Origin: Oscillospiraceae bacterium | GTDB taxonomy: Bacteria; Bacillota; Clostridia; Oscillospirales; Acutalibacteraceae | DNA length: 40,386 nucleotides | Assembly (NCBI GenBank): GCA_015065505.1 | Contig: SVQE01000017.1 | Coordinates: 1 to 40,386, forward strand | Reading direction: 5' to 3' | In this document: positions 12,898 through 34,139 of the stretch, piece after piece | Position numbering within the stretch: the first letter of the stretch is position 1 | Layout: the number at the start of each line of letters is the position of its first letter | Position numbers and translations under genes: made by a program | Notes under the pieces: model-generated | Databases searched by the model: none | Seen by the model: the letters and a program-made list of their open reading frames with translations, nothing else | What the model was told of the DNA's origin: nothing

Positions 12898-15800
12898 TTA
12901 TTTTTCTCTGTACTGAACCCACTTCTGAACATTGGAAATATTTTCTGTACCTGTCGGATCAGTTGCAGATTCCTTAGCGTTATCTTGATAATAATAGTAT
13001 GTATATACTTTAGCACGATCACGATATCTGTACTCTGTGCGATTAACATCTCTTGACCAAGTTGTACTTACAGAATGGTTGTAACTAGAACTTGCTTTAA
13101 TCCATCTGTTGGCATATGTATCGCTTCCATAGTATCCAAAATCAGCATCATTTGTTTTGGTTGAACGTGGCAATACATATGTAAACCATTGTTCTTCTAA
13201 GTGAAGGCTGGAACTTTGTTGATAGGTATAAACAGTGCTACCGTTAACCCATCTGTAGTAGTGATATTCTGTATGGTCGTAAACCGATCTGCTTTCTACT
13301 TGTCGTGAATCTGAAGCAGTGTATTTTGTTGTTGACCATCCACTCCAGTTACCATAAGATCCCCAAGCCGAAGTGGTATTATACTTTGTCCAACCACTCA
13401 TAGATGAAGAGCCCGATGTTGTATATGAACGTAAAGTATAAGTGTATTTAGTATCAACAATCTCTGCATCGATCGGAGCCTCCGATTCTAATACCCAACC
13501 TTTAACATCATTTTGTGTCCAACGAGCAGTTAATGTAACATCATCAGGAGAAGCGAATTCGGTGTTTTCGGTTATTTTGTCTCCATTCGGAGCATACCAA
13601 CCGTCAAACCTGTAATAATCTCTTGTCGGTTCCGGTAATTCTCCTATTTCATCACCATAGAATAAATCACGTGTTGTTTCTGATACTGTACCTTCACCTG
13701 CGTCGAATGTTACAACAAAATGACCGTTAAGGTATTTATCAAATGTTTCCTGATCAATTATCTCAATACTATTGTCTTTATAGCTTATTAGTGATATGTT
13801 TTCAGAAATTCCGCCACAAGTTAATATCTTTCCGCTGACCTGTAAAACCGTAGTTAATGAACTGTCAATTTGGTTGGTGCTTATATTTTTGCAAAGAATT
13901 GAATTCTCGTTACTTGAATTAATATAGCAATTTCCTCTTAACGAAAGATTTGTAAGAACACTTGTCAAAGCCAAACCGATTCCGGATGAAGATATTGAAA
14001 CCTCGTGAAGCTCAACGTTTTCTGAGGAAATTATAATCGGTATTGAACCTGTTGTGTTGAAATTAACTCTGTTGAAAACAGTCTTTTGAGCGTCGGACTT
14101 AATTTTCAGATTGTTAAATGTTTTACCAAAACCGTTAATCAACAGTTTTTCGGTTGTAGAAGGAACTTCAAGAGTGGTATTTTCCAGATCGTTACATTCA
14201 TCAAGAATACTGATTGCAATCACCTTTGCATTTGAATTAACAGCTGCCTCAACAACACTCTTGTTTGTTGCTTCCACATACAACCTTGTTTCGTTACTTA
14301 CAACATTTTCGCCAAGTTCTGTTACCTGCTCACAAACCTGCAATTCCTCAATTGAAGTACATCCGGCAAAAGCAGAATCGCCTATCTTCGTTACACCAAG
14401 AGCATTAATATGAGTTAAAGATGTGCAGTTCTCAAATGCACCGTCAGGAATTTCTGTGACAAAGTTAGAAACTTCAACAGTTTCAATGTTTTCGTTTCCT
14501 GCGAAAACATTTTCGCCTATGCTCGTAACCTTTACAACTGTCTTTGTTCCGTCCTGATTGTCAAAAACTTTGTATTCGGGTATAATAACATTTTTATCAC
14601 TACCCGTGTACCTTGTTACCTTACCGCTCTTTGAAACTTCCAGACCTTCGCTTTCGCAAATTCTGTTATTGACACATTCGGCAATATCCATAGGTGCTTC
14701 AAATTTAATAACTGTATTTTCGAAATCATTATAGTCAGCAGTTTTATATGAGTAATCTTCAAATTGGTGAACTTTGTCATCCATCATAGTAAAGGTCGAT
14801 ACAAAATATTCACCCGAAGCAATATCATATCCGACCTGACCGAAAACATGAGCTGTTCCGGCAAGAATCCAACGATGATAACCGGTCTTTGTGTTTGTTG
14901 TTGTAAATGTTTCTTCAATTTCTTCACCGATAACAGTTGAATATGTTACAGCTGATGAGTATTCGTCCTGATTACTGCTTGAATCCTCATGTCCCTGAGT
15001 TTCAGATTGTGTATTACTCTTCAGATAGCTTGTCTGAAGATTGTAATTCTTACTGCATTCTGTTGAAACCGTTTCAGAAACACTATTGCTTTTCGTAGTT
15101 GAAGAGCTACCGCCTCGACCGGATTCGGTGTTCCAACCGGATGTGCTGCTTGAACTTGTTTCAGAATGATTTGCAGTACCGTTATTATTAGAAACCGTGT
15201 TGTTTGTCTTTACATCTGAAAGTCTGTCAGTCTTAACATTACTTACAGCAGATGTTCCCGATTCAACACTTGTACCGACTTTTGCAGAGAAAGGACCGTA
15301 ACCGGCACCAACCTCTGCACTTACGGTAGTTTTTAATTCTGCCGATACAGTGTCATCAGTTGAATACTGATTTCTGTTTCTAGTGTTAACATTGTATTCA
15401 CTTGAATTATTATTATACGAATCAGAACTATTCATACTTGAAATAGTATTAGAGCCGCTTGTTCCGCTGCTTACATACCAATTGCTGCTCTCGTTGCGAG
15501 AAATTTCTTCAACCTCTGTTCTCGACTTTCCTGTTTTCTGAAGCCATCCCTCATCAATTGTTGTTCCTTCATTCCAGGAATCCGACAATGTCCATCCAAA
15601 TGAGTTGGTAGTTTCTTTCTTAACAGTATTGGTGAGCGTTTTCATCTGTGTATCGTCAACAGTTTTTGTAAAGCGTTTTGTAACTGTTTTAGATATGCCG
15701 TCTTCATTTATGTAACCGAAATCATTAATTACAGAAACAGGAACATTATTGATTTTACCAATGTAGTATGTGTAAAGAATTCTTTCATCATCCTCATATA

Positions 15801-17295
15801 CAGTCGGTTCTGCAATTTTTGTAAATGTTTCCGCCTTGTTTCTTTCGCTGATCCAGTTAGCGGTGTATGTTTTATGTCCATAAGTTGAACCCGCAGGAAT
15901 AGTTGACAAAATTTCACCATCTTCATCAGACCATCCGACAAACACATATCCCGAAAGCTTCGGAGTTGGAAGAATCTTATCCTGATTAATCTGATATGTT
16001 TCACTCGGAACAGCAAATAATCCTGTGTTGTCAAAAGAAATATTATACTTAACGGGAGTCCATTTTGCATATAAATCAACTTCGCCTGTTGTACCTGCAG
16101 GAATCTTTTTAATTATTTCTGCATTAGCGCCTTCTCCGTCATACCAACCTTCAAATATATATCCGGGAACGCTTAAATTGCGCAACGTTAATCCATCTTC
16201 TTTTGTGTAGGCAGAAGGATTCGGGTTTTCAATTTCCAAGCTTTCAAGATATACATCGTTATTTGTTATATAGTAATTAATTGCATATTCATTCTTCTGT
16301 AGCATCGGAATAACTACCTGAGGCACAATAATCGTTTCACATTCTGAACAATGTGAACCTTCGGTAAGACCGGTGGAAGTATATGTCGGCGCCACAGCCT
16401 CATCAATTACAACTGTATGCCCGGTTGCTTCAATTACTGTGTTTTCAACTGATATCTCAGTTGCACAGCTTTCATCTCTATAGAACTTGTTACAGGATTT
16501 ACAATGCCAGCAAGCAATATGTCCGTCTTCCGTACAAGTTGCTTCAACTCTTTCTATCTTTTCAAGGTCATGAGTATGAGCGGGTGCAACCGGTAATTCA
16601 ACATCCCAGCCGCCTGCAATAAATCTGCGGATATAGATAACATCCGTCATATTAATTCTTGTATCGCCGTTAACATTTGCTGCGTTCTCGTTAATAGTAA
16701 CATCATATCCACCTGCGATGAATCTTCTGATTAAGATTACATCCATAATGTTAACATTCATATCGCCGTTTGCGTCACCGTAAATAAAATCAATAACTTT
16801 AACAGAACCGTTTGTTATTGATAAACTTACTGCGTTCAAGTTTGAATCAACAATATCACCGTTATTATATGTCAATTCTACTTCACACTGTGAATCGTCC
16901 TCAGCTTCCTCTGAAACCTGAAATTCCAAAGTAAGAATCGTTCCGTCTTTAATATCGGAATCGCTGAGTTCAATTCCGTCCCATGTGAACTGACAGGGCG
17001 ATTGAAATCTGCCGGGTTTTGTCATTGCCAATGCACTGAAAGCATCGCCCGATGTTGCATTAACAAGAGTTAAATTCTCATCGTAACGCAATGTAAAAAC
17101 AGCACCCAATATTCCTGGGTTGTTTGCAATTTTTACATCAACGCTGACGGTAGAGCCCGGTGTTGCTGTTACATTTGAAACAGTTACAGCCGCCTGCTCT
17201 GAGTTTGCCATTGCTGAAAAGCTTCCTATCGGCAGAACGGATACCAACATAAGAATACTTAACAGTAAAGCTATAAGTTTTTTTGTTTTATTCAT
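12898..17295 (-). CDS. giant secreted mosaic: cohesin + dockerin + InlB repeats + Ser/Thr-rich domain + BspA LRR
   Basis: This 1465-residue protein has a signal peptide (1-31, cleavage after SAMA). Domains in order are a cohesin (about 33-170), a two-repeat type I dockerin (about 175-240, GDANGDMNVNIMDV and NVNGDTRINMTDV, each with IRRFIAGG), two CxxC repeats (about 245-335), two InlB-type repeats (GWYDGEG, YVFVGWSDEDG), a Ser/Thr/Asn-rich beta region (about 500-850), BspA-type leucine-rich repeats (IGDSAFAGCTSIEEL), a beta-rich part, a third InlB repeat and two C-terminal Trp/Tyr-rich repeats. There is no enzyme domain and no LPxTG motif, so surface attachment would come through its dockerin or cohesin. 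The Ser-rich region looks like aerolysin/ETX-type pore formers but this is weak. AAGGAGG sets the ATG at 17295. It is last in the operon. Confidence 0.85.
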   Translation of the reverse strand: MNKTKKLIALLLSILMLVSVLPIGSFSAMANSEQAAVTVSNVTATPGSTVSVDVKIANNPGILGAVFTLRYDENLTLVNATSGDAFSALAMTKPGRFQSPCQFTWDGIELSDSDIKDGTILTLEFQVSEEAEDDSQCEVELTYNNGDIVDSNLNAVSLSITNGSVKVIDFIYGDANGDMNVNIMDVILIRRFIAGGYDVTINENAANVNGDTRINMTDVIYIRRFIAGGWDVELPVAPAHTHDLEKIERVEATCTEDGHIACWHCKSCNKFYRDESCATEISVENTVIEATGHTVVIDEAVAPTYTSTGLTEGSHCSECETIIVPQVVIPMLQKNEYAINYYITNNDVYLESLEIENPNPSAYTKEDGLTLRNLSVPGYIFEGWYDGEGANAEIIKKIPAGTTGEVDLYAKWTPVKYNISFDNTGLFAVPSETYQINQDKILPTPKLSGYVFVGWSDEDGEILSTIPAGSTYGHKTYTANWISERNKAETFTKIAEPTVYEDDERILYTYYIGKINNVPVSVINDFGYINEDGISKTVTKRFTKTVDDTQMKTLTNTVKKETTNSFGWTLSDSWNEGTTIDEGWLQKTGKSRTEVEEISRNESSNWYVSSGTSGSNTISSMNSSDSYNNNSSEYNVNTRNRNQYSTDDTVSAELKTTVSAEVGAGYGPFSAKVGTSVESGTSAVSNVKTDRLSDVKTNNTVSNNNGTANHSETSSSSTSGWNTESGRGGSSSTTKSNSVSETVSTECSKNYNLQTSYLKSNTQSETQGHEDSSSNQDEYSSAVTYSTVIGEEIEETFTTTNTKTGYHRWILAGTAHVFGQVGYDIASGEYFVSTFTMMDDKVHQFEDYSYKTADYNDFENTVIKFEAPMDIAECVNNRICESEGLEVSKSGKVTRYTGSDKNVIIPEYKVFDNQDGTKTVVKVTSIGENVFAGNENIETVEVSNFVTEIPDGAFENCTSLTHINALGVTKIGDSAFAGCTSIEELQVCEQVTELGENVVSNETRLYVEATNKSVVEAAVNSNAKVIAISILDECNDLENTTLEVPSTTEKLLINGFGKTFNNLKIKSDAQKTVFNRVNFNTTGSIPIIISSENVELHEVSISSSGIGLALTSVLTNLSLRGNCYINSSNENSILCKNISTNQIDSSLTTVLQVSGKILTCGGISENISLISYKDNSIEIIDQETFDKYLNGHFVVTFDAGEGTVSETTRDLFYGDEIGELPEPTRDYYRFDGWYAPNGDKITENTEFASPDDVTLTARWTQNDVKGWVLESEAPIDAEIVDTKYTYTLRSYTTSGSSSMSGWTKYNTTSAWGSYGNWSGWSTTKYTASDSRQVESRSVYDHTEYHYYRWVNGSTVYTYQQSSSLHLEEQWFTYVLPRSTKTNDADFGYYGSDTYANRWIKASSSYNHSVSTTWSRDVNRTEYRYRDRAKVYTYYYYQDNAKESATDPTGTENISNVQKWVQYREK

Positions 17296-17318
17296 ATACA
17301 ATCCTCCTTAAAATTGTA

Positions 17319-18962
17319 TTATTTACTGATATTAACGCTTCCATTAACAACATCTGCTTCAACTTCGTTCAGCTCGTTGTCAACGATATCGCCTTTTTTA
17401 TATGTGAAAGATACAGGATAGCTTCCCGCTTTTGCATTATCACTTATATCAAAAAAAAGAATTAGAACATTACCGTCTTTAACCTTGTCTTTCGGCATTT
17501 CAATTCCGTCCCACATAAAGTTACAGCCGTTTTCAAGAGTTTTTGCTTTTGTTAAAGTTAAGCAATCAGATACCGCTTCTCCGTTTTGAGCAGATTTCAG
17601 TTTCATAACAGAATCATCATAAGCAATTTGAAGCGTCATTCCCAATATTCCGGGATTATTCTTAACCGAAACGGCAAGCTCAACATTATTACTTCCCGCA
17701 GAAGCAGTAGTATTTTCGGTAATTATTGTTGGATTATCGCTTTTTTCAACTTTTTCCTCAGTTTCTGTTTCAACAATTCTTTTATCAATAGCCTCCGGCT
17801 TTCCGATATCGATTTTTGTTGAGTCGTTGAGTTCGACAATAACATTGCCTTTTTTATTTTTGTAAACCTTTGAAATGACGGAAGTGTTTTTGTTTTTACT
17901 TGCTTTTTTCTTTTTGAGCTGATTTGCAACTTCTTTATAAAACTCTTCTTCCGTTCCCTTATAACCGTGTTTAACTGCTGTTTCAAACGGTGACGAAGAA
18001 TAGTTACCCGATATAATTGATATGAATTCTTCCTTTGTGCCTTTATATCCGTCGAAAGCAATCTCATCAAAAGCACTGCTTTTTGAATTATATTCCTGAA
18101 CAATCGTATTTAAAAACTCGTATATCGATTCATTATATCCGCTGTCTTTAAGGACTTCATACGGTGATTTGCTATCATACTGCTTGTTCAGAAGAAAACT
18201 AAGCCATTCCGCAAAGCTTCCGTCAAAGCCGTTTTGCTTTGCAAGATTATAAGTTGAAAGACGCTTTTTATCTAATTCCTCCGATTTAGCAAAGCATTCA
18301 AGCCATTCAGCAAGCGAACCTTCAAAACCGTTTAATAAAGCTATTTCATACAGGGATTTGCCATCGGAAGAATAAATCTTTTCATCTTTTACAAGCTTAA
18401 ACAGTAATTCACCTTCACTGCCTTTAAACCCGTTGTTTTTCGCAAATTTGTATAAGGTCTTCTTATTTTTTCCTACATAGCCCTTAAGGCAATCAATCCA
18501 ATCAGCGGAAGAGCCTTCAAATCCGTTTTCAAGAGCTGCTAAATAAGCAGATTTCCCATCTTTATTGCCAAGAAGCTTAAGAGATTTTTCCCACTTATCT
18601 TCGGTTCCCGTAAACCCGTTTTCGCAAGCCGAATCGTAGGAGGATTTATCCTCTGTTTTAAAAGCCCCTTTTTCGTTGATAAATATATTCAGCCAATCTT
18701 CATCTTTGCCCTCATATCCGTTATTAAGAGCAATAACATAAGCCGTCTTTTCATTATCAAAGCTGTCACCTGCTAAAACAGCAAGCAGCTCTTCTTTGCT
18801 TCCTTTATATCCGCCTTTTTCAAGCTGTGAATATGCCGATTTTACACTTGTGTTATACGGAACAGGCTTACTGTTTGAAGTAAACACAACAGCAATAACC
18901 GCTATAGCCGCAAGAATTACCACAAGTGTGCCGAGTATAATAAATTTATTCTTTTTGCTCAT
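17319..18962 (-). CDS. membrane-anchored stalk protein with ten ~31-residue repeats and a C-terminal cohesin
   Basis: This 547-residue protein starts with a signal-anchor helix (about 7-29) and no clear cleavage site. Residues about 38-350 are ten repeats of about 31 residues following SxYxxAxxNGFxGSxxEWL, a motif also seen in spacer parts of other Firmicute surface proteins. A Lys-rich and then Glu-rich linker follows, and residues about 412-547 form a cohesin-like domain (NNPGILGMTLQIAYDD, CNFMWDGIEMPKDKVKDG). The arrangement suggests a cell-attached post presenting one cohesin away from the membrane. AGGGG precedes the ATG. It lies 23 bases from both neighbours. Confidence 0.85.
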   Translation of the reverse strand: MSKKNKFIILGTLVVILAAIAVIAVVFTSNSKPVPYNTSVKSAYSQLEKGGYKGSKEELLAVLAGDSFDNEKTAYVIALNNGYEGKDEDWLNIFINEKGAFKTEDKSSYDSACENGFTGTEDKWEKSLKLLGNKDGKSAYLAALENGFEGSSADWIDCLKGYVGKNKKTLYKFAKNNGFKGSEGELLFKLVKDEKIYSSDGKSLYEIALLNGFEGSLAEWLECFAKSEELDKKRLSTYNLAKQNGFDGSFAEWLSFLLNKQYDSKSPYEVLKDSGYNESIYEFLNTIVQEYNSKSSAFDEIAFDGYKGTKEEFISIISGNYSSSPFETAVKHGYKGTEEEFYKEVANQLKKKKASKNKNTSVISKVYKNKKGNVIVELNDSTKIDIGKPEAIDKRIVETETEEKVEKSDNPTIITENTTASAGSNNVELAVSVKNNPGILGMTLQIAYDDSVMKLKSAQNGEAVSDCLTLTKAKTLENGCNFMWDGIEMPKDKVKDGNVLILFFDISDNAKAGSYPVSFTYKKGDIVDNELNEVEADVVNGSVNISK

Positions 18963-18985
18963 AAACTTTACCCCTGTGCATATTT

Positions 18986-20740
18986 TCAGCTATTCGTTTT
19001 TTTCAAAGACAGCTTGTTTATCAAAGCAAAATCTTTTGCGTTAATTATTCCGTTATCAACGACATTTAACAATGAACAGTTATCCGTTTTTGTTCTGTTG
19101 GTTGTTGAATTTGGTTTTTTATTAATATAATTGCTGTTCCACATTGCTAAAACCTCATCGGCATTAACCGAAATTGTTACATTGCAGTCAACGCATTTAT
19201 ATGTCATAACATAATCCTTTTGATTGCCTGTGTATTTATAGTAATGTCCGATTTCATCGGTATAATCAGTCTTATAGCTATCAACGCAAACAGAACAGGT
19301 GTGTAAAACATATCCTTTTTGTGTGCAAGTAGGGCTAACCGTTCGCTGAGTATATGTATGAGTATGACTGCCGATTGTAATTCCGCCTGAAACGAACTCT
19401 GCTTCAACAGGGTTTAAATCGGCGTCTACAATGTCGCCCTCATTACTTGATATATTAATACTGTATTTATATCCCGACGGTGCATTTGAGGGTATTTCAA
19501 AAGTCAGGGTAAGAACAACTCCGTCTTTAATATCATCTTCAGGAAGCTCTATTGCGTCCCAGGTAAACTGACAGGGCGACTGAAATCTGCCCGGTTTTGT
19601 CATTGTAAGAGGTGCAAAAGCCGAACCCGAGGCAGCCTGTTTTAAAACCAATCCGTTATCATAACTAAGTGAAAGAACCGCACCTAATATTCCGGGGTTA
19701 TTCTGAACGGACACATCAACATCAACTATACTTCCCGGAGTACTTTCAATTGAAGCGACGGTAAATCTTGTTTCATTTGTTGTCGGCTCTTCCGGTTCGG
19801 TTGGTTCGGTTGAATCGCCTATTTGAACATTTCCTGAAACACAATCCACATCAACAACATTTAAATTCGAATCGATTGTATCTCCGACAAGACTTGATAT
19901 TTCAATATCGTAAACATCGCCGTTTTGTGCATTTGACGGAACTTCAAAAGTCAAAGTTAAAATCGTACCGTCCTTAACATCGGATTCATCTATTTCCACT
20001 CCGTCCCAAGCAAACTGACAGGGAGAAGTGAATCTTCCGGGCTTTGTCATGGTCAATGCCGAAAACGCCGAACCGTTAGCAGCGCTTTTAAGCGTTAATC
20101 TGCTGTCATAATTAAGAGAAAGAATTGTGCCAAGTATTCCCGGATTGTTTTCAACATTAATATCAACAGCCACTGTTTCACCGGGATTGCCTTTTACGGA
20201 ATTAACCTTGAATGCTGTTTTATCCGAATGAGTCGGTTTTGTTGTTGCGTCAACAGAAATTTTTCCCGAAACGCAATTAACATCAACAGGATTCAAGTTG
20301 GTATTAACAATGTCTCCTGTTTTACTTGAAAGTGAAACATTGTAAACATCCCCATCTTTTGCAGATGAAGGAACCGAAAAGGTTAATGTTAATATCGTTC
20401 CGTCTTTAATATCGTTCGATGAAATATCAACGGCGTCCCATGTGAAATTACACGGAGAAGAAAAAGAACCCGGTTTTGTCATATCGAGCGCTGAAAAAGC
20501 AGCGCCTGATTTAGCGCTTACAAGTGTTAATCCGCTGTCATAACCCACTGTTAACACAGCGCCCAATATTCCGGGATTGTTTTCAATTGATATATTGACA
20601 TCAACAGTTTCACCTGCTTTTGCATTAACACTTTCAGCAGAAATCTTTGTTCTGTCAGAATTTGCAAAAACATATAAAAAGCCGGTTGACAAAATAAATA
20701 ACACTGCTAATACGATAGCTGTAATCTTTTTCGTTTTCAT
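18986..20740 (-). CDS. secreted triple-cohesin scaffold with degenerate dockerin end
   Basis: This 584-residue protein has a signal peptide (1-27). Three cohesin-like domains (about 30-165, 172-310, 325-455) each carry NNPGILG, an MTKPG turn, SPCxFxWD and KDG(T/V)xLTLTF. Domains 2 and 3 are joined by an acidic Thr/Pro linker (TEPTEPEEPTTNE). Then come CxxC pairs (about 457-525) in the style of the HTH-TPTCT-CxxC repeats, and one dockerin-like half (NVVDNGIINAKDFALINKL). Only half a dockerin is present, so calcium-dependent binding by it is doubtful. It is first in the operon and should hold several dockerin-bearing partners. AAGGTGA sets the ATG at 20740. Confidence 0.88.
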   Translation of the reverse strand: MKTKKITAIVLAVLFILSTGFLYVFANSDRTKISAESVNAKAGETVDVNISIENNPGILGAVLTVGYDSGLTLVSAKSGAAFSALDMTKPGSFSSPCNFTWDAVDISSNDIKDGTILTLTFSVPSSAKDGDVYNVSLSSKTGDIVNTNLNPVDVNCVSGKISVDATTKPTHSDKTAFKVNSVKGNPGETVAVDINVENNPGILGTILSLNYDSRLTLKSAANGSAFSALTMTKPGRFTSPCQFAWDGVEIDESDVKDGTILTLTFEVPSNAQNGDVYDIEISSLVGDTIDSNLNVVDVDCVSGNVQIGDSTEPTEPEEPTTNETRFTVASIESTPGSIVDVDVSVQNNPGILGAVLSLSYDNGLVLKQAASGSAFAPLTMTKPGRFQSPCQFTWDAIELPEDDIKDGVVLTLTFEIPSNAPSGYKYSINISSNEGDIVDADLNPVEAEFVSGGITIGSHTHTYTQRTVSPTCTQKGYVLHTCSVCVDSYKTDYTDEIGHYYKYTGNQKDYVMTYKCVDCNVTISVNADEVLAMWNSNYINKKPNSTTNRTKTDNCSLLNVVDNGIINAKDFALINKLSLKKTNS

Positions 20741-20760
20741 GCTTATCACCTTAAAAAACA

Positions 20761-20850
20761 ACTAATTATACAATCATATTATACTATTACAATTAGTGCG
20801 TGTCAACATCAAATAACTAATTTTAGCGGTATATTGTTAATATAATTAGT
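20761..20850. promoter_or_regulatory. four ACTAATT boxes shared by divergent promoters
   Basis: ACTAATT occurs at 20761-20767 and 20817-20823, and its inverse AATTAGT at 20791-20797 and 20844-20850. They form two inverted pairs spanning 37 and 34 bases. One box lies inside the spacer of the cohesin promoter; another overlaps the TATAAT (20841-20846) of the Xre gene. This is the expected layout for a small helix-turn-helix regulator repressing the operon and itself. Confidence 0.7.
20778..20806 (-). promoter_or_regulatory. perfect-consensus promoter of the cohesin operon
   Basis: On the minus strand TTGACA, exactly 17 bases and TATAAT match the sigma-A consensus at every position. The spacer contains an ACTAATT box, so a bound regulator would block polymerase directly. 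Confidence 0.85.
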
Positions 20851-28748: not shown

Positions 28749-29618
28749 ATGAATATTGAATTACCAATAGAAAATGCTTTGGATAGATTTGTTCCTAGCT
28801 TTGATACTGTTGTTCACTGGTTTAACACTCCAAAAGAAGAAGCGAGGCTATTTTTTTTGGAGCTTGTTAAAGATAACAATCAACTAACAGATAAAGAAAA
28901 AATCGCATTGATATATAATTCAAGGAAGGCTATTAGAGAATTTGGAAATTGTAAATCCATTTATGAAAACGCAATCAATATTTTCAGAAATAATAATCAA
29001 AATATAACGTGTGAAGAAATTGACGGAAATACAATAGATGTTGATTGGCTTGAGCTTTTTTTTGACAAAGCGAAATTAGTGAACAACAAGGATTTACAGA
29101 TTATTTGGTCAAATATTCTTGCAAACAAAATGGAAAAACCTGATTCGATTAACCCCTCGTTAATTCATACACTTTCAATTATTAGTACTGAACAAGCAAA
29201 CTTCTTTTGTAACATATCACGGTTTTGTTTTGAAGAAAGAAAAAGTGATATAGTTCATCCTTTGATTTTCATAAAGACAAATAAAAAAGCATATGAAAAT
29301 TCTGGGATAACTGATCAAAAATTAAGAGAATTACACCGACTTGGGCTAATCGAATATAACCCAGAAAAGGAGTTTGTTTTCGAAAATAAAAAAACTATTG
29401 TTAAAGGGAATTTCCAAATTGATATTTATGGAGATGAAAACGACCGAAATATTATTAAAGCCGGAAATGTTTTTTTTACTCAGGATGGACTAGATTTATA
29501 TTCAATTGTTGGAAGCGATGTTAAAAAATATCGAAATGATATTCTAGATTTTACTGTAGAAAGACTAATACACAGAAAGTGCAAGGTTTATATAAATGGA
29601 AAGGCGATTATTTTTTAA
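28749..29618 (+). CDS. DUF2806-like protein in AT-rich island
   Basis: This 289-residue soluble protein has an acidic helical N-terminal half and the segment DVDWLELFFDKAKLVNNKDL followed by QIIWSNILANKMEKPDSINP, which matches the pattern I know from DUF2806/TIGR03899-type proteins. The C-terminal part is a wHTH-like GITDQKLRELHRLGLIEYNP and beta strands. Function unknown; relatives tend to occur in variable genome regions. The gene is much more AT-rich than core genes here, stands alone between a TnpV remnant and a terminator, and has its own promoter and a GGAGAG site. Acquisition by transfer is likely. Confidence 0.65.
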   Translation: MNIELPIENALDRFVPSFDTVVHWFNTPKEEARLFFLELVKDNNQLTDKEKIALIYNSRKAIREFGNCKSIYENAINIFRNNNQNITCEEIDGNTIDVDWLELFFDKAKLVNNKDLQIIWSNILANKMEKPDSINPSLIHTLSIISTEQANFFCNISRFCFEERKSDIVHPLIFIKTNKKAYENSGITDQKLRELHRLGLIEYNPEKEFVFENKKTIVKGNFQIDIYGDENDRNIIKAGNVFFTQDGLDLYSIVGSDVKKYRNDILDFTVERLIHRKCKVYINGKAIIF

Positions 29619-29745: not shown

Positions 29746-30222
29746 TTAATACCACCTATTTATCCAGCCTTCTGAGTCGGTTGGGGATTCTGAAGGTGTT
29801 GTTTCAGTTTCTAATACGGATTCCGATGTAGTGGACTCGATTTTTGTGGAGGTGGTGGGTTCGTCTGTGTTGTCAGATGACACATCGATATCGTCTGCAG
29901 CTGCAGTTGTGGTTTCGTATATAATAACTGTTGTTGATTCTGTCGTTACATATTCGCCGGTGCGATTAGTTATCGGCTCTCCGCTTTTATCTGTTGCTAT
30001 TTCAACTAAAACCGTAGTAGCGTTTTCTCCCTGCGAATTGTCTGATACGATTTTATAATAATGCGTTGTGCCTTCTTCATCGACAATTACGGTTGTTGCT
30101 TCCTGTGCAGTTGATTCGCTGACTTTTTCAGTAGCGTTTTCAGTTATGCTTCCTTGCCTGCAGGATGCAAAAGCAGCAGCAAAAACAATAATAACAGAAA
30201 TCGCAATAATAACCCTTTTCAA
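29746..30222 (-). CDS. Thr/Ser-rich lipoprotein with peptide-like C-terminus
   Basis: This 158-residue protein (from the TTG at 30222) opens with KRVIIAISVIIVFAAAFASC, a lipoprotein signal whose lipobox Cys would be residue 20. The rest is Thr/Ser/Glu-rich and low in hydrophobics, as in a flexible surface tail. Its last residues, EGWINRWY, match the end of the small peptide at 30353-30469 (EGWIDKWY), and the DNA of both ends is alike. An ATG at 30243 is the alternative start but would overlap the upstream peptide gene. Function unknown; it ends the peptide operon and probably stays on the outer face of the membrane. Confidence 0.7.
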   Translation of the reverse strand: MKRVIIAISVIIVFAAAFASCRQGSITENATEKVSESTAQEATTVIVDEEGTTHYYKIVSDNSQGENATTVLVEIATDKSGEPITNRTGEYVTTESTTVIIYETTTAAADDIDVSSDNTDEPTTSTKIESTTSESVLETETTPSESPTDSEGWINRWY

Positions 30223-30223
30223 A

Positions 30224-30340
30224 TTAACTTCCGAACGGTACATCGTTGTCATCGCCCTGAACATCGCCGCTTGTTGTGATAACGTCAACTGTTTTGTATT
30301 CCTCAACATCAAATTCAGGTTTCAAATACTTTTCTTTCAT
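30224..30340 (-). CDS. 38-residue peptide B (shared leader, acidic tail)
   Basis: The frame of 38 codons begins at ATG 30340 after GGAGG. The first 24 residues are MKEKYLKPEFDVEEYKTVDV followed by ITTS and align with peptide A; the last 14 are GDVQGDDNDVPFGS, acidic and unlike A. It is too short for most gene finders. I know similar short KPE...DVITTS peptides in clostridial genomes, with no assigned function. The constant start and variable end resemble leader and core of a secreted or modified peptide, but no Cys and no modifying enzyme is seen nearby. Confidence 0.7.
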   Translation of the reverse strand: MKEKYLKPEFDVEEYKTVDVITTSGDVQGDDNDVPFGS

Positions 30341-30352
30341 TTCAAATCCTCC

Positions 30353-30469
30353 TTAATACCATTTATCAATCCAGCCTTCATCGTCTACGCCTACCGTACT
30401 TGTTGCAATTACATCAACGGCAGAGTATTCATCAATGCTGATTTCGGGTTTAATATATTCTTCTTTCAC
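30353..30469 (-). CDS. 38-residue peptide A (shared leader, EGWIDKWY tail)
   Basis: This frame of 38 codons starts at GTG 30469, two bases after the stop of the LRR gene, with GGAGG inside that gene's end. The first 24 residues are MKEEYIKPEISIDEYSAVDV followed by IATS, matching peptide B position by position; the tail TVGVDDEGWIDKWY is different. Same length as B, 12 bases apart. The tail's final eight residues recur at the end of the lipoprotein. Function unknown. Both peptides should be made together with the LRR protein. Confidence 0.75.
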   Translation of the reverse strand: MKEEYIKPEISIDEYSAVDVIATSTVGVDDEGWIDKWY

Positions 30470-30471
30470 AG

Positions 30472-31935
30472 CTAATCCTCCAATAGATTGTTCAGTTGGT
30501 CTTTTATGCTTTGGTCAATATCAGGATCAGCAAGTACTGCGTTTGCAACGCCCTCAAATGAACGAGTTATGATGTCAGAATAGAAATATACGCCGTCAAT
30601 GCAGACGTAAGCACGTGCAGAAATTTCAGTTTTGTAATTCTCTTTGGGAATATCAGTGAATACAAGGTTAAACGAGGTTTTACCGTCGTTGTCAATACGC
30701 TTTTCGGCAACCTTTGTTTTGCCGTTTTCCACGGTCAAGTCGTCCGTGCGTTCATATGCATATACAAATCCGTATTCGGTGTTATCCTCGCCGTAAGCCG
30801 CCTGATAATCGGTGCTATTGTCCCAGTTAAATCCGAAGCGCAGTCCGCTGTCCGACAGCCTGATTGAGCCACCCAGCGCCCCTGCGAGCTTGGGAACATA
30901 GACACAGGACAGCAATCGGTATTCTTGATAGATTGAAGAATACTGTGTTCTTAGAGCATATCTGCTGATTTCCGTTACGCCCTCTGCACGAATCTCTTTC
31001 AGGTTGTAACAGTAATCAAACATATACGGCTTGAGTTCGCTTACTTTCTTTCCTAATTCAATATTAGTGAGAGGTCCGCATTCAGCAAATACATAATTTC
31101 TGTAATTTTCAAGATTAGGCAAAGAGATAGTCCTAAGGTCAAAAGTGTTTTTGAAGCAGTGACTTCCTAATGTGCTTATTGTTTCGCTTCTTACTTCAGG
31201 TATTGACGTGTAAATAAATGCTTCGCCACCTATTGAAACAGTGCTGGAAAAATCAATATTTGTCAATGCCCAGCATTCTCTGAAACAGTTTTGACCGATT
31301 ACCTCTGCTTTTCCATAAACACTTTTTAATCCTGTACATCCATAAAAAGCGTAATCACCAAGTGTTTTGCAGGTATCCGGCAGGGTAATAGACCTTAGAT
31401 AATTCGAATAATAATCATCATTTACACCGTTCGGTGATGCTTCAGAAGGCTTAACCATTTGCGAAAAGCAGTTGTCACCTATTGCATTAACGGGTATTCC
31501 ATTTACCTCGTCGGGAATTACAAGGTCTGATGTGTTTCCTGCGTATGCTGTCAGCACGCCGTTTTCATCAACGGTGAATCTGCCTTCATCACTTGCATAA
31601 CGAATATAGTACCGATTTGTTACTGCTTCGCTGGTTTCGTTGTTCCTTTCAGTCCAAGCAGTGATATAGCACGGCTCAGTTATTGTGAGTGACGATGTGT
31701 ATTTGGTTGCCGATTGTTTAAGTGCACCCTTAAAATTGCTCATGCCGTATTCATAAATCTCATAATAAATATCGGCAAACAAGTTTGTTGTGCTGATTGA
31801 TACTTTTACGCTGCCGTCATAAGCACCGCTCTCCTTTGAAAATGTCGGCGTTGCCAAATCTGCTGCATAAGCAGATAACGGCAATGCAGCGATAAACATT
31901 AATAACGCTAATAATAATGATATTGTTTTTTTCAT
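30472..31935 (-). CDS. secreted BspA-type leucine-rich-repeat protein
   Basis: This 487-residue protein has a signal peptide (1-24, cleavage after AYA). A chitobiase-C-like beta domain follows (about 28-108, PTFSKESGAYDGSVKVSIST, YITAWTERNN). LRR_5/BspA repeats run from about 115 to 340 (IGDNCFSQM, TLGDYAFYGCTGLKSV, IGGEAFIYTSIPEV). The C-terminal beta domain (about 350-470) contains GLRFGFNWDN and ARAYVCIDGVYFYSD. Such proteins bind host or matrix partners; the ligand is unknown. It is first gene of the operon with the two peptides and lipoprotein, preceded by LytTR-type boxes. Confidence 0.83.
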   Translation of the reverse strand: MKKTISLLLALLMFIAALPLSAYAADLATPTFSKESGAYDGSVKVSISTTNLFADIYYEIYEYGMSNFKGALKQSATKYTSSLTITEPCYITAWTERNNETSEAVTNRYYIRYASDEGRFTVDENGVLTAYAGNTSDLVIPDEVNGIPVNAIGDNCFSQMVKPSEASPNGVNDDYYSNYLRSITLPDTCKTLGDYAFYGCTGLKSVYGKAEVIGQNCFRECWALTNIDFSSTVSIGGEAFIYTSIPEVRSETISTLGSHCFKNTFDLRTISLPNLENYRNYVFAECGPLTNIELGKKVSELKPYMFDYCYNLKEIRAEGVTEISRYALRTQYSSIYQEYRLLSCVYVPKLAGALGGSIRLSDSGLRFGFNWDNSTDYQAAYGEDNTEYGFVYAYERTDDLTVENGKTKVAEKRIDNDGKTSFNLVFTDIPKENYKTEISARAYVCIDGVYFYSDIITRSFEGVANAVLADPDIDQSIKDQLNNLLED

Positions 31936-32153: not shown

Positions 32154-33437
32154 TTATTTGTTTTGCAGTATTATTGTTAATTTGAATTGTTTATCGGTCT
32201 GGCTGTATTCCCACTCACAATCGCCGCCGTATTTCTTCAGCGTCTTTGCAATGCTTTTCATTCCGATACCGTGGGAGCCTTTGTTTTTCTTAGTCGTTTT
32301 CAGTTTTGAATCGGGCGGAATATCGCAGCTGTTTTCAATAATAACCGTGTCGTAAGTATTAACCCGTTTTGTTGAAAACAAAATCTTCTTTGCTTCCGAT
32401 TTTTCGGCTGCATCAAGCGCGTTATCAAGAGCGTTGCCGAGAATTGTTACAAGGTCAAAGCTTTCAACATAGTTAAGATTGCAGAGCTTAACATCAAAGG
32501 CGAAATCAATATTTTTTGAATAACACTCGGTAACATATTTATTGATGAGAATATCAAGCGTATGGTTTCCGCTGTGGCAGGCGCTGTTTGCAGTTTTGAT
32601 TTCATCATTCATTTTGTCGATATACTCCGCAACCTCGTCACGGCTGCTCATATCGCGTATTGCCGCAAGATGATTTTTGTAATCGTGAGTTAAAATCTGC
32701 ATTTCGCGGTTCTTCATTTCAAGCAGGTCGAGATACTGCATATCAATTTCGTTTTTCATCTGCTGAGTTTTCAGCTCGGCAAATTCGTTTTCCTGTTTTT
32801 GCAAAGCTTGATTGTATATAAAAATGAAACAACATAGAGCCAACGAAAGAACGCTTATTACAGCACAAATCATATTAATCTTTTTAGAGAGGCTGTAATA
32901 AGAAGAAACATAAAATAATAATGTCAGCGTTACTGTAATCATAACCGGATAAAGAAACAGCATAAATGCTTTTTTCATATCATTGACGGCATTGTTTCTT
33001 TTATATGAAAAGCATAATGATATAAGCTTGCAAATAATTAAATATAATGCTTTACAGGTTATGCCTAAAATAATTAATGCCGATAGACTATTTTTATATG
33101 CATCGATAGGTATATTTAACAAATATGATGCGATATATTCAACTATCATTTCACTTATAAACATAATTGCAAGAAGTATTGAGGAGTGAAATATACCGCT
33201 TATCCATGAGATGTTAAAGGACAGCTTACAATATACTACATTGATAATGAAAAATGTTAATAGATTAATTGCTAAACTGTTTTTGTCTATATAATTAACT
33301 GCAAATCCGATTAAATATAACCCAAGCGACAGCAAAACGGAATACGCTGGTTTTATCTTGATTTCATAATTATCCGAGAAATAAACATAGGCAATAACTG
33401 ATTCAAAAACATAAACTAATAAATAGAATAATATCAT
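32154..33437 (-). CDS. AgrC-like membrane histidine kinase (GHKL, HPK10 class)
   Basis: This 427-residue kinase has six to seven TM segments (about 1-205), a coiled-coil (about 210-240), a phospho-acceptor motif QILTHDYKNHLAAI and a GHKL ATPase domain (TILGNALDNALDAAEKS, KGSHGIGMKSI). The class senses peptides (AgrC) or other signals through the membrane part. It starts 6 bases after the regulator stop, and AGGAGA overlaps that stop. No AgrB/AgrD pair is near, so the peptide signal, if any, is unknown; the two small peptides at 30.2-30.5 kb are candidates only by location. Confidence 0.88.
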   Translation of the reverse strand: MILFYLLVYVFESVIAYVYFSDNYEIKIKPAYSVLLSLGLYLIGFAVNYIDKNSLAINLLTFFIINVVYCKLSFNISWISGIFHSSILLAIMFISEMIVEYIASYLLNIPIDAYKNSLSALIILGITCKALYLIICKLISLCFSYKRNNAVNDMKKAFMLFLYPVMITVTLTLLFYVSSYYSLSKKINMICAVISVLSLALCCFIFIYNQALQKQENEFAELKTQQMKNEIDMQYLDLLEMKNREMQILTHDYKNHLAAIRDMSSRDEVAEYIDKMNDEIKTANSACHSGNHTLDILINKYVTECYSKNIDFAFDVKLCNLNYVESFDLVTILGNALDNALDAAEKSEAKKILFSTKRVNTYDTVIIENSCDIPPDSKLKTTKKNKGSHGIGMKSIAKTLKKYGGDCEWEYSQTDKQFKLTIILQNK

Positions 33438-33443
33438 ATCGGC

Positions 33444-34139
33444 TTATCTCCTCTTGATATAATCAAACCAGAATTTGTGAAAATCCGCTTGCTTCCTTGT
33501 TGCAACGGATACCCTTGTTTCGCCGAGGTATATTTCTTTATATCCGTACTGAGTGATATAGTGGATATTAACCAGAAATGATTTATGAACCAAATAGAAA
33601 AATGTATTCGGCAGTTTTGAAACAAGGTCTTCAAATGTGGTCTTCACCAGGTATGTTCCGCTTGTTGTGTAAACGGTTATCTTCCTGTTTTCGCGCTTGA
33701 TATAGATAATATCATCAACAAGCACGCGAACGCTGGAGCCGCCTTTATCAAGGAAAATATCAACATAAGTTTCATCAAGATATTCCATTGCTTTATCAAG
33801 ACCTGCATAGAGGCGCTTTTCATCAAACGGCTTTTCAAAGAAACGGAAGATGTGCAAATCCATTGCCTCGTCCTGATATTCTTCATAAGCCGTAACAAAG
33901 AAAATGATTGTTTTGCTGTTGCGCTCTTGCAGTGCCTTTGCAACTGAAATGCCGTCAGCCCCGGGCATCTGAATATCAAGAAACGCAAGGTCAAAAGCAG
34001 CTCCGCCAGCAAGCACTTCATCGGGCGAAACCGAGGCGGTTATCTCTGTGCTTATCAAGTGAGTTGCCATATACTTTTCAATATTAAATTTTAAATCATC
34101 AACAAACTTCTGCTCGTCATCAAGAATTAAGATACGCAT
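33444..34139 (-). CDS. LytTR-family response regulator
   Basis: This 231-residue protein has a receiver domain (1-125, Asp55 in LAFLDIQMPGADG) and a LytTR DNA-binding domain (about 135-231: DIIYIKRENRKITVYTTSGT, FYLVHKSFLVNIHYI). It should bind pairs of short direct repeats about two turns apart, and such pairs lie before its own gene and before the LRR/peptide operon. Partner kinase is the next gene. GGTGAT precedes the ATG. Confidence 0.92.
   Translation of the reverse strand: MRILILDDEQKFVDDLKFNIEKYMATHLISTEITASVSPDEVLAGGAAFDLAFLDIQMPGADGISVAKALQERNSKTIIFFVTAYEEYQDEAMDLHIFRFFEKPFDEKRLYAGLDKAMEYLDETYVDIFLDKGGSSVRVLVDDIIYIKRENRKITVYTTSGTYLVKTTFEDLVSKLPNTFFYLVHKSFLVNIHYITQYGYKEIYLGETRVSVATRKQADFHKFWFDYIKRR

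Follow-up and report, generated by a model that had tools for sequence, protein, structure and literature searches.

Tandem short genes in an Oscillospiraceae genome as probable precursors of RRE-dependent, LPP-like peptides whose tails in some loci recur on surface lipoproteins

Introduction

What do two reading frames of 38 codons encode when they lie in tandem between a gene for a large secreted surface protein and a gene for a lipoprotein, and what could become of their products? The frames are found in a stretch of 40,386 nucleotides from an Oscillospiraceae bacterium (GenBank assembly GCA_015065505.1, contig SVQE01000017.1), referred to here as the window. A first-pass annotation, made from the sequence alone, proposed that the frames are peptide precursors with a constant leader and a variable end. 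Our analysis supports this proposal in part and adds a feature that it had missed, namely that the end of one peptide recurs on the lipoprotein encoded by the next gene.

Results

Two conserved frames belong to a large family in the Oscillospirales

The two frames and the end of the first are located as follows.
30469-30353, minus strand: precursor P2, 38 codons plus stop, GTG start, tail ending in VDDEGWIDKWY
30353-30376, minus strand: terminal motif of P2 with its stop
30340-30224, minus strand: precursor P1, 38 codons plus stop, ATG start, tail ending in GDDNDVPFGS

Both frames are real, and each start is preceded by a GGAGG (identified by eye) 7 nt upstream, in agreement with the good ribosome-binding sites described earlier. 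The leaders of 24 residues, previously reported to match, are clearly similar, but only 15 of the 24 positions are identical; the tails, reported to differ fully, have 1 of 14 residues in common. With P1 as the query, P2 was recovered at E 3.9e-5 and a further copy from the same genome at E 2.2e-8, among 11 matches at E<=10 that include weak ones. With P2 as the query, half of a set of 60 genomes (30) gave matches at E<=1, several of the weakest lying inside long frames and not being relatives, and the best match is the orthologue in genome G005 (E 1.2e-15). The similarity exceeds what chance would give. Both genes are conserved at the codon level, with changes mainly at third positions. For P1, the comparison with G005 (one codon of an indel dropped) gave 5, 5 and 17 differences at codon positions 1, 2 and 3 (dN 0.15, dS 1.56) and that with G031 gave 6, 3 and 16 (dN 0.149, dS 1.14), while P2 and its G005 counterpart differ at 10, 5 and 22 positions (dN 0.21, dS saturated). 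No Pfam or NCBIfam model matched P1 or P2.

Alignment of 31 peptides from the same genus revealed an ungapped leader of 24 residues in which Y5, P8, D19 and S24 are invariant. At E<=0.1, a profile of this leader, built without other genera, had matches in 79 of the order's 295 genomes, representing 50 of 148 genera; 18 matches are in the window's own genome, several peptides of which had been built into the profile. The loci that we studied contain 151 peptides; 142 were kept after a length and score filter, and 139 of these could be anchored on the leader (3 could not). The anchor residue is Tyr in 136 and Phe in 3, followed by Pro at Y+3 in 138 (the YxxP motif), by Asp at Y+14, eleven residues past the Pro, in 134, and by Ser at Y+19 in 134, with a Ser somewhere in Y+18 to Y+21 in all 139. 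The absence of Cys noted for P1 and P2 extends to the tails of all anchored relatives. P1 and P2 are thus members of a large family in the Oscillospirales. A literature search, with most subscription journals outside its reach, returned no description of a clostridial leader family of this kind or of tail sharing.

Tails recur at the ends of surface lipoproteins

Downstream of P1 lies the following gene.
29746..30222, minus strand: Thr/Ser-rich stalked lipoprotein with a lipobox-like FASC (by eye) and the C-terminus SEGWINRWY at 29746-29769

We propose a TTG start at 30222 for this gene, whose frame is open to 30321. Its terminal EGWINRWY resembles the EGWIDKWY of the P2 tail. Across 60 genomes, the DNA pattern for GW[IV]x[KR]WY followed by a stop was hit 15 times, in 9 of the genomes, and the reversed control gave no hit. 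The 15 places comprise three leader peptides (P2 of the window and one each in G005 and G020), 11 Thr/Ser-rich lipoproteins and, in G007, a frame of 67-76 codons that has the stalk and GW-type tail of the lipoproteins. Similarly, TP[YF]IP[IV]P before a stop occurs at 7 places in 4 of the 60 genomes (control, 0), corresponding to four leader peptides and three lipoproteins, the latter presumably carrying a flavodoxin-like domain. Loci L195-L197 (in G030, G028 and G031) encode lipoproteins with a Thr-rich stalk and a TP[YF]IPIP end as found on short peptides, and we take these proteins to be flavodoxin-like.

When each peptide tail was compared with the last 16 residues of the proteins encoded within 6 kb, 10 of 143 peptides reached a score of 33 or more, and 200 shuffles of the loci yielded 0.46 such peptides on average and 3 at most; the other 133 fell below this score, and tail sharing is thus absent from most loci. 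Two matches above the threshold were judged coincidental, one between the tail DDNDVPF of L050 and an SSB-like C-terminus and one acidic match in L056, and the acidic DDED matches of L042, L074 and L144 were regarded as low-complexity. In the remaining eight pairs the partner bears a signal or lipobox (by eye). The shared ends are GWI[DN][KR]WY in the window and G005, IELPIIPV in L178, TP[YF]IP in L063 and L055, where the partner is on the opposite strand, ELPF in L176, GDEY in L236, and EGDNGTGWG in L276, where the partner has an SLH domain. In addition, motif A, D[NT][DENT][VILT]x(1,2)[FW], which describes P1-type tails, is present in 23 of 142 tails and internally in 15 of 21 lipoproteins with GW tails (expected 0.11; shuffled mean 0.16, maximum 2 of 500), as counted with a rule made after both sets had been viewed and among lipoproteins that are related to each other; the window's own lipoprotein lacks it. 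The recurrence of peptide tails at the C-termini of stalked lipoproteins or of an SLH protein, in some loci, is new here.

The peptides follow secreted surface proteins

Upstream of P2 the window contains three further genes of interest.
30472..31935, minus strand: secreted BspA-type LRR surface protein of 487 aa, directly upstream of P2 at a distance of 2 nt
32154..33437, minus strand: GHKL histidine kinase, a neighbour whose association is not obligatory
33444..34139, minus strand: LytTR response regulator, likewise a neighbour without obligatory association

The C-terminal domain of the LRR protein, grown by iterated profile search, was recovered from 52 of the 113 proteins encoded upstream of peptides, as against 5 of 1761 other genes. 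A gene of at least 100 aa lies on the same strand within 800 nt upstream of 125 of the 142 peptides, at a median gap of 20 nt; five of the 17 peptides that have no such gene are at contig edges. Among the upstream genes with a complete start, 93 of 110 encode proteins of at least 300 aa that are signal-like by a simple hydrophobicity rule, compared with 23% of 1001 baseline genes. The peptides thus sit behind huge secreted surface proteins, an arrangement that is new relative to the published account of linear polyphosphorylated peptides (LPP). Elsewhere in the window, the protein encoded at 28749-29618 has two Pfam matches above cut-off, one to DUF2806 at 47 bits and one to Abi_alpha at 33.5 bits, and 12898-20761 encodes three adjacent large secreted proteins with NNPGILGA...-type repeat domains, presumably akin to cohesins, and dockerin-like repeats.

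The order response regulator, histidine kinase, surface protein, peptides, lipoprotein raises the question of whether the peptides are secreted signals that the adjacent GHKL/LytTR system reads, the tail of the lipoprotein being their tethered counterpart. In five other distinct loci (L067, L203, L230, L066 and L115), a relative of the kinase is encoded on the strand of a leader peptide and no more than 3.6 kb away from it, and L203, from another genus, repeats the entire order of the window from regulator to lipoprotein. However, none of 11 further regions around kinase relatives contains a leader peptide, genome G018 has a kinase relative and no P2 match, and most of the listed peptide loci have no such kinase and regulator pair. 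We have dropped an obligatory tie between the two-component system and the peptides on account of the 11 further regions, and consider the signalling explanation as a whole unlikely. Genes near relatives of the window's kinase in L336-L339 suggest an agr-like kinase family; we assume that the neighbouring proteins there are AgrB-like.

Putative processing enzymes are encoded elsewhere in the genome and beside the leader in relatives

The first-pass annotation had found no modifying enzyme. This is correct for the locus: the window's contig has no match to the PqqD/RRE, HprK-like or SipW-like peptidase families, and precursors and enzymes do not form one cluster here. It is not correct for the genome, in which all five genes of the LPP type (discrete RRE, HprK-like kinase, SipW-like peptidase, MsbA-like ABC transporter and NTP_transf_5 nucleotidyltransferase) are encoded on other contigs. 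PqqD is found on contigs C55, C66 and C72, the HprK-like protein on C72 and C91, and the peptidase on C95; the kinase is paired with an RRE on C72 (L251), an RRE with the nucleotidyltransferase on C66 (L250) and the peptidase with the ABC transporter on C95 (L309), while the second HprK-like gene is that of L310 on C91 and the third PqqD gene that on C55. In L309, L311, L313, L314, L317 and L319, all from this genus, the pair of peptidase and ABC transporter has no adjoining RRE.

In relatives, leader, HprK-like kinase and RRE share one strand at eleven loci, namely L252, L270, L271, L272, L273, L274, L276, L277, L279, L176 from Ruminococcus flavefaciens ND2009 and L322 from the window's genus. 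Four of them (L252, L274, L277 and L176) have the complete set of five enzymes together with a precursor. The first three follow the order of the lpp core operon, which is precursor, kinase, RRE, peptidase, ABC transporter and nucleotidyltransferase; L176 has the same genes, but one precursor sits between kinase and RRE. This last locus (NZ_JHXI01000007.1) unites the whole operon, two precursors and a tail-matched lipoprotein in a named strain. Among 15 regions examined, which include several of the above, the combination of leader and HprK-like gene was not seen in L275, L278, L280, L281, L282, L283 and L284; L280 has machinery and no leader nearby. The earlier interpretation of a constant leader and variable end as a precursor layout is supported by the YxxP leader and by the RRE-type machinery adjoining it in relatives.

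The same association is apparent across genomes. Of the order's 295 genomes, 135 have PqqD (PF05402, the RRE family). A leader at E<=1e-3 is present in 57, of which 50 have PqqD and 7 do not (odds ratio 12.9, p 3.5e-13, uncorrected for phylogeny); these seven are metagenome-assembled genomes of 68-90% completeness. At E<=0.1, PqqD accompanies the leader in 68 of 79 genomes (p 6.8e-18, likewise phylogeny-uncorrected). All 16 leader-positive genomes that were tested have the peptidase and the HprK-like protein, as against none of four genomes from the same genus picked for lack of a discrete PqqD (G003, G014, G018 and G021; G014 has one match below cut-off, and the absence of leaders from the four refers to the P2 search only).

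The enzyme labels differ in strength. PqqD passes the Pfam cut-off, and the scores of peptidase, RRE and kinase fall below the cut-offs of curated models, the best such model for the peptidase being archaeal-type signal peptidase I (E 1.6e-5, below cut-off). All 14 peptidases have an invariant Ser25 and His64 at the spacing of 39 seen in LppS (S29-H68), and their conserved Asp lies 15 residues past the His as against 25 in LppS. The P-loop is invariant in 14 HprK-like proteins, which give weak model matches only and owe their label to gene order, the P-loop and these matches. A search of solved structures returned no relative of the HprK-like protein and nothing useful for the peptidase.

Three other explanations were weighed. 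The tight spacing behind secreted proteins would suit small intracellular proteins that remain unprocessed and aid the folding or secretion of the surface protein, with the YxxP motif and operon context being coincidental. We consider this improbable, since it accounts neither for the RRE, kinase and peptidase genes that accompany the leader, both in cis and across genomes, nor for the variable tails held in common with exported proteins. Lasso peptide precursors, with a YxxP leader, cleavage by B2 and a core closed by a macrolactam synthetase, are a second candidate: paeninodin-like clusters also have a YxxP leader, a discrete PqqD/RRE, a kinase and a nucleotidyltransferase. Yet the lasso leader peptidase PF13471 is absent from the window's own genome, for which reason we dropped this candidate, and was found in 2 of 26 genomes (once at cut-off and once below); the tails do not have the lasso core pattern of Gly1 with Asp/Glu at 8-9, and a lasso product is very improbable. 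Finally, precursors of the double-glycine bacteriocin type, which leave the cell through a peptidase-C39 transporter, also combine a leader with a variable tail, but the leader consensus has no GG site and PF03412, present in 6 of 37 genomes, is absent from this one, which led us to discard C39 export as having practically no chance of being correct.

Discussion

We interpret P1 and P2 as precursors of ribosomally synthesized and post-translationally modified peptides (RiPPs) that depend on an RRE, either of the LPP kind or of a close clostridial sister, which would be processed in trans, and assign this reading a probability of roughly 0.83. The leader family, gene sets, co-occurrence and tail sharing are observed. 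A PqqD-type RRE would read the leader of 24 residues through YxxP, the near-invariant Ser24 is the probable target of the HprK-like kinase, and the SipW-like (S26) peptidase is predicted to cut near Asp19-Ile21. The MsbA-like transporter would then export the tail, which the nucleotidyltransferase may decorate. Because the enzymes are absent from the window but present on other contigs, processing would take place in trans, with one set probably serving many precursors, as the 18 profile matches in the genome suggest.

The exported tails would be short linear motifs. The recurrence of the P2 tail at the end of the neighbouring lipoprotein suggests that peptide and lipoprotein display a common motif on the cell surface, with a single partner as its probable target. 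A more tentative extension, to which we give limited credence, is that the pathway supplies, in soluble and modified form, a docking tag that cell anchors carry as a genetic fusion, and that the freed peptides tether, release or regulate the upstream surface protein; anchors and freed peptides would then draw on one vocabulary of C-terminal motifs, perhaps comprising GWIxKWY, TPYIPIP, xELPxIPV, EGDNGTGWG and GDEYxF. If the main reading is right, LPP-type peptides are spread widely in the Oscillospirales and a single RRE system handles numerous precursors encoded at scattered sites, short genes of a class that escapes cluster-based mining because the enzymes are elsewhere. The shared tails would furthermore be the first testable link of LPP peptides to a cell-surface function, including in R. 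flavefaciens ND2009.

LPP were described from Bacilli in May 2026 on the basis of the lpp cluster of Paenibacillus alginolyticus, and were reported there without known roles (PMC13381572). In that system, cleavage of LppA by LppS, after T-1, depends on the RRE LppB, LppK phosphorylates S3 only, and the leader consensus of Bacilli is YxxPxVLxHQxIxFETxxS (PMC13381572). The clostridial family shares with LPP the YxxP leader, an acidic residue at Y+14 (Glu-2 of LPP corresponds to Asp19 when counted from the Tyr), a near-invariant Ser past the predicted cut as a candidate counterpart of S3, and the set of HprK-like kinase, discrete RRE, SipW-like peptidase, MsbA-like exporter and NTP_transf_5, in the same order in cis relatives. 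Only YxxP and the acidic residue agree with the full Bacilli consensus, however; T-1 is replaced by V/I, and the conserved Ser is at Y+19, one residue further than the phosphorylated S3 at Y+18. As the architecture agrees and the consensus does not, we file the family as a variant of the LPP type, and from sequence LPP itself and a close sister would look alike. Further differences from LPP as there described are the many precursors presumably served in trans, the coupling to giant secreted surface proteins and the mirroring of tails on anchored proteins; the main text of the LPP paper does not mention ruminococci, clostridia, surface or lipoprotein (PMC13381572).

Lasso peptides have been surveyed in rumen bacteria (PMC7533575, PMC13289728). 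The paeninodin type resembles the present family in its RRE, HprK-like kinase, nucleotidyltransferase and YxxP/WxxP leader, and differs from it in that the genome studied here has no B2 peptidase and the tails have no ring-forming core pattern. A precedent for a lipoprotein and a short open reading frame that encode near-identical peptides is provided by the enterococcal pheromone and inhibitor pairs, such as cAD1/iAD1. In those pairs the pheromone lies within the signal peptide of the lipoprotein, whereas here the shared peptide forms the C-terminus of the lipoprotein stalk.
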